Positions 19,461-24,957 of a stretch of DNA of 38,300 bases are shown piece after piece (position 1 is the first letter of the stretch; every line of letters starts with the position of its first letter). The notes beneath the pieces are model-generated. The model did not search any database. It was not told the DNA's origin and saw only the letters and a list, made by a program, of their open reading frames with translations. Origin of the DNA: Steroidobacteraceae bacterium. Its GTDB lineage: Bacteria > Pseudomonadota > Gammaproteobacteria > Steroidobacterales > Steroidobacteraceae. The stretch covers positions 1 to 38,300 of the forward strand of contig JALHTE010000246.1 of NCBI GenBank assembly GCA_022865595.1, written 5' to 3'. Made by a program: the position numbers and the translations under genes.

Positions 19461-21839
19461 TTGAGCCGCTATACAATCCCGTTCAGCGAACTGGGCCGCC
19501 ACGACGTTGCGACCGTCGGCGGCAAGAATTCCTCACTCGGCGAGATGATCGCCAATCTCGCCTCGCTCGGCGTCTCGGTGCCCGGTGGCTACGCCACGAC
19601 CGCCGAGGCCTACCGCGAGTTCCTCGGGCACGAAGGCCTCGCAGGACGCATCAAGGCAGAACTCGACGTACTCGACGTGGACGACGTCGGTCGCCTAGCC
19701 GAGACGGGCGCCCGAATTCGCGGCTGGATACTCGCGGCACCCTTCCCCGCCGCGCTGGAACGCGAAATCACCGAGCGCTACGCCGCCATGTGCGAGGGTC
19801 AGGATGAGGTATCCGTCGCCGTTCGCTCGTCGGCCACGGCCGAGGACCTGCCGGAGGCATCGTTCGCCGGCCAGCAGGAGACCCTGTTGAATGTCTGCGG
19901 TGCCACGAATGTCGTGCGTGCCGTGCACGAGGTCTTCGCCTCGCTGTACAACGACCGCGCCATCGCCTACCGCGTGCACCAGGGCTTCGACCATTCGCTG
20001 GTCGCCCTGTCGGCCGGCATCCAGTACATGGCGCGCAGCGACCTCGGCGCGAGCGGCGTGATGTTCACGCTGGACACCGATTCCGGGTTCCGCGACGTGG
20101 TGTTCATCACCGCCGCCTGGGGCCTCGGTGAGACCGTGGTCCAGGGCGCGGTAAACCCCGACGAGTTCTACGTCTACAAGCCCGCGCTGCGCGCCGGCCA
20201 CGACCCGATCCTGCGCCGGACGCTGGGCGCGAAAGCCATCAAGATGACTTACGCGCAGGACGGCGGGGGCGAACAGCGCGTCGTGACGATGGACGTGCCG
20301 GAGGCCGACCGGCAGCGGTTCTGCCTGGAAGACGCGGACCTGCTCGAACTCGCGCGGCAGGCGCTGGTGATCGAGGACCACTACGGCTGTCCGATGGACA
20401 TCGAGTGGGGCAAGGACGGCAGCACCGGTCGCATATACATACTGCAGGCACGCCCGGAGACGGTGCAGAGCCGCGCGGGCCGCACGCTGCAGCGCTATAC
20501 GCTCCAGTCGCGCGGCAAGGTGCTGGTGAGTGGCCGGAGCATCGGGCACCGCATCGGGGCCGGACCGGCGCGCGTGATCCGCGACGCACGCGAGATGGCG
20601 CGCGTGGAGTCCGGCGACGTACTCGTCGCCGACATGACCGACCCGGACTGGGAACCGGTGATGAAACGGGCCTCCGCAATCGTCACCAACCGCGGCGGGC
20701 GTACCTGCCACGCCGCGATCATCGCGCGCGAACTCGGCATTCCGGCGGTCGTCGGCTGCGGCAATGCGACGACCGAGATCCGGGAGGGGCAGGCAGTCAC
20801 CGTGTCCTGCTCCGAGGGGGACATCGGCTACGTGTACGACGGGATGCTCGAGTTCGAGCACACGCAGGTGGAAGTCGACTCAATGCCGGCATTGCCGGTC
20901 AAGATCATGATGAACGTGGGCAATCCGGACCGCGCCTTCGATTTCGCGGCGATTCCGCATCGTGGGGTCGGCCTGGCACGACTCGAGTTCATCATCAACC
21001 GGATGATCGGCGTTCACCCGAAGGCACTGCTCGGCTTCGACGGGCTCGACCCGCAGCTCCAGGACACAATCCGGCGGCAGATGGCGGGCTACCCGGACCC
21101 GGTCGAGTTCTACGTGGCGAAACTGTGCGAAGGCATCTCCACGATCGCCGCGGCGTTCGCACCCGAACCCGTGATCGTGCGGCTCTCCGACTTCAAGTCG
21201 AACGAGTACGCGAACCTGATCGGCGGTCGGCAGTACGAGCCGGTCGAGGAAAACCCCATGCTCGGGTTTCGCGGCGCGTCCCGCTACACGGACGAGAGCT
21301 TTCGTCCCTGCTTCGAACTCGAGTGCCGGGCACTGAAGCGGGTGCGCGGCGAGATGGGGCTCAAGAACGTGTGGGTGATGGTGCCGTTCGTGCGCACAGT
21401 GCGCGAGGGCGCGCAGGTCATCGAATTGCTGGCCGCCAACGGACTGAAGCGGGGCGAAGACGGTCTCAAGATCATCATGATGTGCGAAGTGCCGACCAAT
21501 GCGCTGCTGGCCGACCGTTACCTCGAGCACTTTGACGGCATGTCGATCGGTTCGAACGACATGACGCAGCTCACGCTGGGGCTCGATCGCGACTCCGCCA
21601 TCATCGCGCGGCTGTTCGATGAGCGCGACGACGCGGTCAAGGCGCTGCTGCACATGGCGATCCAGGCCTGCCGCAAGGCGGGCAAGTACATCGGCATCTG
21701 CGGCCAGGGGCCGTCGGATCACCCGGACCTGGCGCGCTGGCTGCTGGACGAGGGCATCGAGAGCATGTCGCTCAACCCGGACACGGTGGTCGAGACCTGG
21801 CTGTTCCTCGCGAGCGGCGCGGCGAAGGACAAGCACTGA
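19461..21839 (+). CDS. ppsA: Phosphoenolpyruvate synthase
   Basis: Converts pyruvate, ATP and water to PEP, AMP and phosphate at the start of gluconeogenesis. The N-terminal ATP-grasp domain opens with [12 protein letters not shown] and contains [20 protein letters not shown]. The swivelling domain holds the phosphohistidine in [17 protein letters not shown] (His about 417). The C-terminal barrel ends with [14 protein letters not shown], containing the catalytic Cys (about 747). TTG 19461 is preferred: GAGG lies about 6 nt upstream, the product starts [12 protein letters not shown] like other PpsA proteins, and 792 residues equals the E. coli length. A TTG at 19437 would add eight unlike residues. 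Divergent from ppsR, which controls it. Confidence 0.95.
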
Positions 21840-21891
21840 CCGCAGTAGACGCTGTGTTACCGGCCGGTCGGCCACCCTGGGTCCCCTACCG

Positions 21892-21913
21892 GCTCGCTCG
21901 GAAACATGCTCAC
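21892..21913 (+). repeat. 22-nt motif, copy 1 (diverged)
   Basis: Matches the other two copies at 18 of 22 positions. The middle part GGAAACATGCTCAC differs at one base from the shared form. It is flanked by short 9-bp arms CGGCCGGTC (21861-21869) and GACCGGCCG (21916-21924), which are unequally spaced from the motif, so its hairpin is weaker than those of copies 2 and 3. Confidence 0.65.
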
Positions 21914-21932
21914 CTGACCGGCCGCTCGGACC

Positions 21933-21985
21933 TTCGGGATGTCCTCCCGCTCGCGAAGAAACATGCTCGCGGAGGACATCCCGAA
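21933..21985 (+). repeat. Hairpin element with 22-nt motif copy 2 as loop
   Basis: Perfect 15-bp arms TTCGGGATGTCCTCC (21933-21947) and GGAGGACATCCCGAA (21971-21985) enclose the motif at 21949-21970, which includes AAGAAACATGCTCGC. The loop is identical, base for base, to that of the hairpin at 22106-22173 read on the other strand, while most of the stem is different. Confidence 0.85.
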
Positions 21986-22105
21986 CGCCCTCACGGCCTG
22001 CGCCGCGGCACGCGCGACGACCAGGCGCGAAGCCGCGCGGCTGCGGCAAGTAACCTGCGGCAAGCACGTGGCGGCGCAGGCGCGTCGAGCCTGCCGCGAC
22101 GCCAG

Positions 22106-22173
22106 GCGACCGTGGCGGGTCTTCTCCAGCGAGCATGTTTCTTCGCGAGCAGGAGAAGACCCGCCACGGTCGC
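22106..22173 (-). repeat. Hairpin element with 22-nt motif copy 3 as loop, inverted
   Basis: Perfect 22-bp arms at 22106-22127 and 22152-22173 enclose the motif at 22129-22150 in the opposite orientation to copy 2. The arm bases next to the loop (GGAGAAGA) resemble those of copy 2 (GGAGGACA); farther out the stems share nothing obvious. Confidence 0.85.
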
Positions 22174-22208
22174 TGCTACAGCGGTTTCCGTCCGGGACGC
22201 CGTCCCAG

Positions 22209-22808
22209 CTACCTGATCGCCTGCCGCCCGGCGAGCGCGTGGGCGAGCGTGCCGCCATCCACGTACTCTAGTTCGCCGCCGACCGGCACACCGTGCGCGA
22301 TCCGCGTGGCACGCAGCCCCAGTCGCGCGGCGACCTCGGCAAGGAAGTGTGCGGTGGCTTCGCCCTCGACCGTCGGGTTGGTCGCGAGAATTACCTCCGT
22401 GACCTCGCCCTCGCCGAGCAACCGCTCAAACGCCTCGATGCCGATCTCGGAGGGACCCACGCCGTCGAGCGGAGACAGGTGGCCCATCAGCACGAAATAG
22501 CAGCCGCGAAAGCTCGCCGACTGCTCGATCGCGACCACGTCGGCCGGCGACTCGACGACGCAGAGCAGCGCGCGATCCCGCGTGGTCGCCGCGCAGACAG
22601 GGCATGAGTCGCCTTCCGCAAACATGCGGCAACGGCTGCAGTGGCCAAGCGATTCAGCCGCGGCGGTGAGCGCGGCGGATATCTCGCGCGCGCCGTCCCG
22701 GTCACGTTCCAGAAGGTGGAACGCCATGCGCTGCGCGGACTTCGGCCCGACGCCGGGCAGGCAGCGCAGCGCCTCGATCAGCCGGTTCAGCGTCGGCGGA
22801 TACAGCAT
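22209..22808 (-). CDS. recR: Recombination mediator protein RecR
   Basis: A 199-residue RecR, which with RecF/RecO loads RecA at single-stranded gaps. Visible features are the N-terminal helix-hairpin-helix ([17 protein letters not shown]), the four-cysteine zinc site [16 protein letters not shown] (Cys57, 60, 69, 72), the Toprim domain beginning [11 protein letters not shown], and the C-terminal Walker-B-like [10 protein letters not shown] region. Length equals that of known RecR proteins (about 200). Last gene of the dnaX-ybaB-recR operon, 13 nt after ybaB. Confidence 0.97.

Positions 22809-24845: not shown

Positions 24846-24957
<112 letters not shown>

Follow-up and report, generated by a model that had tools for sequence, protein, structure and literature searches.

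A constant loop on changing stems between convergent genes

The window, i.e., the whole stretch of 38,300 nucleotides analyzed here, contains a 369-bp gap (positions 21840 to 22208) that raises the question of why the loop of a hairpin should be kept while the stem that carries it changes. The gap is flanked by two convergent genes, one (19461 to 21839, + strand, with the start set by the gene caller used) coding for what we take to be a phosphoenolpyruvate synthase-like protein (ppsA), and the other (22209 to 22808, − strand, from the gene call) for a presumably RecR-like protein. The original prediction of three copies of a 22-nt core in this gap was borne out: the core, GCTCGCGAAGAAACATGCTCGC, is present in identical form at 21949 to 21970 (+) and 22129 to 22150 (−), and by direct reading a third copy at 21892 to 21913 (+) is identical at 18 of 22 positions. 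The expectation by chance, from shuffles of the window, is 0 at up to 3 mismatches.

Two of the copies are carried by robust hairpins. The H1 hairpin (22106 to 22173, −) lies 36 nt 3′ of the recR stop codon in sense orientation to this gene; it has a perfect stem of 22 bp and a 24-nt loop, tGCTCGCGAAGAAACATGCTCGCt, and its z-score when folded as single-stranded DNA is −11.2. The second hairpin (21931 to 21987, +) is found 3′ of ppsA, also in sense orientation to its gene, with a 23-nt loop, CGCTCGCGAAGAAACATGCTCGC, and a z-score of −7.2 under the same conditions. Its 17-bp stem has one mismatch. The stems of the two hairpins are not unrelated: their inner parts match at 8 of 11 positions, and wherever they differ, both arms have changed so that pairing is kept. 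The degenerate third copy is not supported as a real hairpin, since it lies in a weak structure (21861 to 21924, +; 11-bp stem with one mismatch, loop GCTCGCTCGGAAACATGCTCAC) with a z-score of −0.7.

The hairpins form a dispersed family in the genus

The 22-nt core, which had been put forward as a probe for further copies, recurs nowhere else in its own genome, where a search for a literal 16-nt core gave just the two window copies, and the family could thus be detected only through its structure. An 18-mer of the core gave six exact matches in unrelated phyla and matches with 2 mismatches in the bacterial family, which were taken as chance, and none in viral contigs. In congeners, the recR-ppsA gap contains further hairpins, which resemble those of the window in the loop but have different stems with compensated changes, or, in three of them, a small gene instead. 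A covariance model, R1, was built from six hairpins of the recR-ppsA gap set and used to search the window genome and eight congeners (nine genomes, all apparently fragmented drafts). Scoring of the best 25 candidates per genome yielded R1 matches in eight of the nine genomes (all congeners but one), with 12 in the window's own genome and up to at least 23 per congener. The top match in the own genome was the H1 hairpin, whose E value of 3.8e-14 is not independent, as it is one of the six sequences used to build the model; the second window hairpin, which was excluded from model building, was recovered with an E value of 3.4e-10. When the search was extended twice beyond these nine, each time to approximately 400 genomes from the order and class with the bacterial family included, a single clear match was added, and among the other genomes of the class that were drawn, no match fell below an E value of 0.002.

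Three congeners contain 73, 41, and 55 exact copies, respectively, of a 15-nt loop, GAAAGGCAGACACGC, which none of the other six genomes has, and the reversed pattern, used as a control in the same genomes, gave 0 copies. At the loci that were fetched, 77 of 82 occurrences of this loop are in a hairpin, versus 1 of 82 random places. Altogether, 136 hairpins were extracted, with a median stem of 31 bp (range, 15 to 45) and 95% Watson-Crick pairs. A kept loop on changing, paired stems holds genus-wide, on a larger scale than first reported, and the intergenic repeat with compensatory stem changes that had been predicted was found with the hairpin model both in the own genome and in the genus. 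We regard the existence of a dispersed, covarying family as almost certain. Its loops are nearly uniform inside one genome and differ between clades, as if they tracked a recognizer.

The exceptions to the hairpin context of GAAAGGCAGACACGC are half-hairpins, made up of the 5′ arm and the loop and located directly before a complete hairpin, plus a single loop that stands bare, 2 nt past a stop codon (the set comprises L214 3423, L215 3877 [−], L238 3151, and L228 3378 [−]). They might be stages in a gain or an exchange that takes place at the loop. A loop spacing of approximately 57 bp is also found in several further contigs.

Contigs often start or end at hairpins (G148:C75, G148:C161, L040, L149, L168, and others), and short-read assemblies probably undercount the hairpins for this reason.

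The hairpins follow gene ends

According to gene positions from our own codon-usage caller, none of the 136 hairpins lies within a gene. As many as 102 are in sense orientation just past a stop codon, versus 29 that are not, and the sense hairpins start at a median of 45 nt past the stop codon. Neighboring hairpins form 35 inward-facing pairs and no outward-facing ones. The gaps that contain hairpins comprise 44 convergent, 30 codirectional, and 4 divergent ones, versus 11, 33, and 40, respectively, for other gaps of the same loci; convergent gaps are thus enriched (P = 7e-9) and divergent ones depleted relative to a background of gaps near matches rather than of the whole genome. Hairpins are also found after the same genes across subclades, with different loops and unrelated stems. 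A regulon was considered and rejected, as the upstream genes with an assigned family name have a mixture of functions.

This placement and the fact that the same genes retain a hairpin in different subclades and families even as its stem and loop change favor an RNA signal at the 3′ end, i.e., an unconventional terminator or an mRNA-stabilizing hairpin with its loop bound by a protein or an RNA; covariation would then reflect selection on the RNA fold, and the loops would coevolve with their binder. Several features argue against such a signal. A U tract is lacking, as 0 of 136 hairpins have at least 6 T among the 12 nt that follow, and the hairpins have no Rfam match. Inward-facing pairs occur in divergent and codirectional gaps as well, where one member is antisense. 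Together with the scarcity of wobble pairs and the rate of stem change described below, these features make an RNA signal a possibility that deserves weight but is not likely.

Other hairpins accompany the family. A second class with a constant foot, GCGCCTGAGC...GCACGGCGC, and a variable apex is found 9 to 10 nt after many H1 hairpins (L155 3263 to 3384 and similar loci in G146, G147, G148, G151, G152, and G153); its foot pattern was not found in the window's own genome. In G146, another repeated hairpin, with the apex CGCGAAAT...ATTTCGCG, occupies the recR-ppsA gap as well as further sites (L098 2394 and 2582; L139 6372, 10213, and 10401). Hairpins with CCAGGGATGGATTCACGG or ACAGGGATGTATTCACGG in their inner part (L092 415 to 545; L061 1304 to 1399) possibly represent a further constant-loop type common to different genera.

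The two arms of the stem change together

Forty-five distinct hairpins that share one loop were compared. Paired cells make up 98.1% of the total, 22 of 24 pairs have two-sided changes, and 230 cells changed on both sides versus 5 on one side only (wobble); shuffles of the same set gave 54 two-sided cells and 73.9% pairing. The invariance of the loop in this set results from the way in which the set was selected, and comparisons of orthologs, of stem subfamilies, and of exact copies are the fair tests of loop constancy. In 12 comparisons of orthologous hairpins among G147, G152, and G153, 42 pairs were compensated, 18 had changed on one side, and 260 were unchanged. Divergence per site was approximately 16% in the stems and 12 to 31% in the rest of the gap, versus approximately 4% in the loops (7 of 170 positions changed).

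Among 4,027 pairs, mismatches read on the loop-sense strand comprised 45 G·T versus 93 A·C (P = 5e-5, an optimistic value because the copies are related). Under selection on the fold of an RNA, stems should change more slowly and G·U intermediates should remain, whereas the stems change at an about neutral rate and G·T mismatches are half as common as A·C ones. This asymmetry indicates that the matching of the arms is not due to selection for folding of the sense RNA, and it disfavors the part of the original prediction that envisaged an RNA-bound repeat.

Template switching has been described for RNA genes as a process that creates and maintains perfect stems (PMC8794818). If it operated between the two arms, it would produce two-sided changes with few wobbles, as observed; the pattern expected of hairpins maintained by template switching at the DNA level, namely, arms that change together with few wobble intermediates, was found here. 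Template switching should also invert loops, and the rarity of inverted loops counts against it. We judge it probable that the arms are kept complementary by copying from arm to arm. Template-switch maintenance predicts both perfect arms and simultaneous compensatory changes (PMC8794818), but it is a mutational process and not a repeat family, and it does not predict a loop common to many loci. Strong "compensatory" covariation need not imply a functional RNA, and the wobble asymmetry separates RNA selection from arm copying in DNA. With dozens of loci per genome, orthologs, and an adjacent neutral yardstick, the family is a natural data set on arm matching.

The units have dispersed and are now rather stable

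One stem subfamily is present at many nonorthologous sites, with homology that begins close to the outer border of the hairpin and upstream flanks that are unrelated. Such near-identical hairpins at unrelated sites show that the units have dispersed. The retention of hairpins 3′ of the same genes in different subclades and families points to little mobility now, and adjacent orthologous gaps of G147, G152, and G153 included none with a hairpin in one genome that was lacking in the other. The outer flanks of 35 pairs were no different from control sites with respect to target-site duplications, a trait of MITE-type elements, and no transposase, integrase, or binding protein tied to the family was found. 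The proposal of a mobile element is supported as regards spread to nonorthologous sites but not as regards a transposase or target duplication. The one candidate tested, a gene of the RAYT type (Y1_Tnp), is present in six of the nine genomes and missing from three, two of which are hairpin rich; in the six genomes with the gene, no H1 loop motif was found beside it. The Y1_Tnp gene and the genes enclosed with it were tried as an autonomous partner, with no consistent result.

Taken together, the family has probably spread as a DNA element that is read in its loop. Recognition in the loop, as first suggested, agrees with the constancy of the loop, but the act of recognition itself is inferred. 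As an overall explanation, to which we give about an even chance, we propose a noncoding, REP-like DNA hairpin repeat located after gene ends, with a constrained loop and with arms matched by template-switch copying. The loop would be the constrained and probably recognized part, whereas the stem would need only to be complementary. A mutation in one arm would be copied into the other by template switching during replication, which would yield perfect arms and allow the stem to diverge at a roughly neutral rate. A trans-acting factor that covaries with the loop may read it as single-stranded or cruciform DNA and may have spread the units, which might be retained behind stop codons and in convergent gaps because they do no harm at such sites. 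The units may also serve as a two-way boundary of transcription, a guess from their position that we hold to be somewhat less than evenly likely. The loop offers a clear bait for a DNA- or RNA-binding factor.

The same design recurs with another loop in another family

The constant-loop design is seen again, with a different loop, in G286, which belongs to a different family of the order. A match in this genome led to the loop CGGGGAASTCTTACTCG, of which G286 contains 15 copies when one mismatch is allowed; in the other 39 genomes of its family, only two stray one-mismatch matches were found, neither in such a hairpin. A search of viral contigs for the two loops other than that of the window gave none. 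The stems in G286 are 26 to 58 bp long, mostly perfect, and mutually unrelated, the similarity of their arms not exceeding that of shuffled ones, and nearly all loop copies are within approximately 15 nt of a gene end. In the genus of the window, unlike in G286, the stems of different copies are related (relatedness of 8.3, versus 5.3 for shuffled stems). Genes similar to pilU and to pyrK carry hairpins in both families.

It is conceivable that the hairpins are a new class of bacterial 3′-end element whose information resides in the loop alone, the factor building or spreading palindromes from local sequence so that each site would have its own perfect stem, with loops homogenized throughout a genome and exchanged as whole sets from one lineage to another; we consider this unlikely. 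Quite improbable is the insertion of a short mobile sequence into the loop of native terminator-like stems, or its replacement of that loop. The unrelated stems and single common loop of G286, nearly always near a gene end, would fit such an insertion, as would the half-hairpins directly before full ones and the bare loop 2 nt after a stop codon, but the stems of the genus are related between copies and whole hairpins recur at unrelated sites. Moreover, native terminators seldom have perfect stems of 30 to 58 bp.

Comparison with known repeats

The DNA repeat proposed above resembles REP, BIME, and REPIN elements with their RAYT (TnpA_REP) enzymes in that these are noncoding, dispersed intergenic palindromes, often in inverted pairs, that form hairpins at the DNA level. 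REPs carry a tag (GTAG or CGTC) on conserved stems of 5 to 13 bp and in many cases come with a RAYT gene (PMC3733652, PMC8266576), whereas here the loop is constant, the stems are variable and approximately 31 bp long, and both the GTAG tag and an associated RAYT gene are lacking. At the foot, GTAG is present upstream in 6 of 136 hairpins and CTAC downstream in 7 of 136, and the core boxes of integron attC sites, RYYYAAC and GTTRRRY, occur together at the foot in only 1 of 136. The head-to-head, palindromic, intergenic arrangement and the single-strand-like structure notwithstanding, it is thus very unlikely that the family belongs to RAYT/REP repeats or attC sites, in agreement with the original prediction. 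A constant loop with a free stem reverses the usual pattern of bacterial palindromic repeats, in which the stem is conserved and the loop is free. At Rfam gathering scores, the window matched only through an SRP RNA and the loci only through one tRNA.

Organelle hairpin elements (Volvox palindromes, sponge RHEs, and double-hairpin elements) are likewise dispersed in noncoding DNA and often clustered; those described here are bacterial, have loops of 10 to 25 nt and stems of 20 to 58 bp, and are tied to gene 3′ ends. In Volvox, palindromes whose stems vary in length share the constant loop TTTA/TAAA (PMC2670323), and sponge RHEs have conserved stems and variable loops (PMC2800124), the opposite of the pattern found here. 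Families of repeated intergenic stem-loop sequences have been reported in bacteria (PMC2267715); the terms searched for conserved or compensatory loop patterns are absent from that paper. No account of such a pattern for bacteria was found in the open-access literature, although this is only weak evidence that it is new.

Chance or an assembly artifact, such as palindromic chimeras of metagenome assemblies, is a negligible explanation: the genomes are apparently fragmented drafts with contigs that often end at hairpins, but orthologous hairpins with conserved loops and covarying stems are present in separately assembled genomes, and the expectation by chance is nil.

Other elements were observed apart from the family. 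The window contains a bacterial small SRP RNA at 24852 to 24948 (−), its sole Rfam match. Its genome also harbors separate REP-like palindromes, GGGGACATTCCCC and GTGCCAGGCAC (L070, L075, L076, L131, and L136; L249 206 to 1963), and copies of GTGCCAGGCAC flank the only Y1_Tnp gene of that genome.
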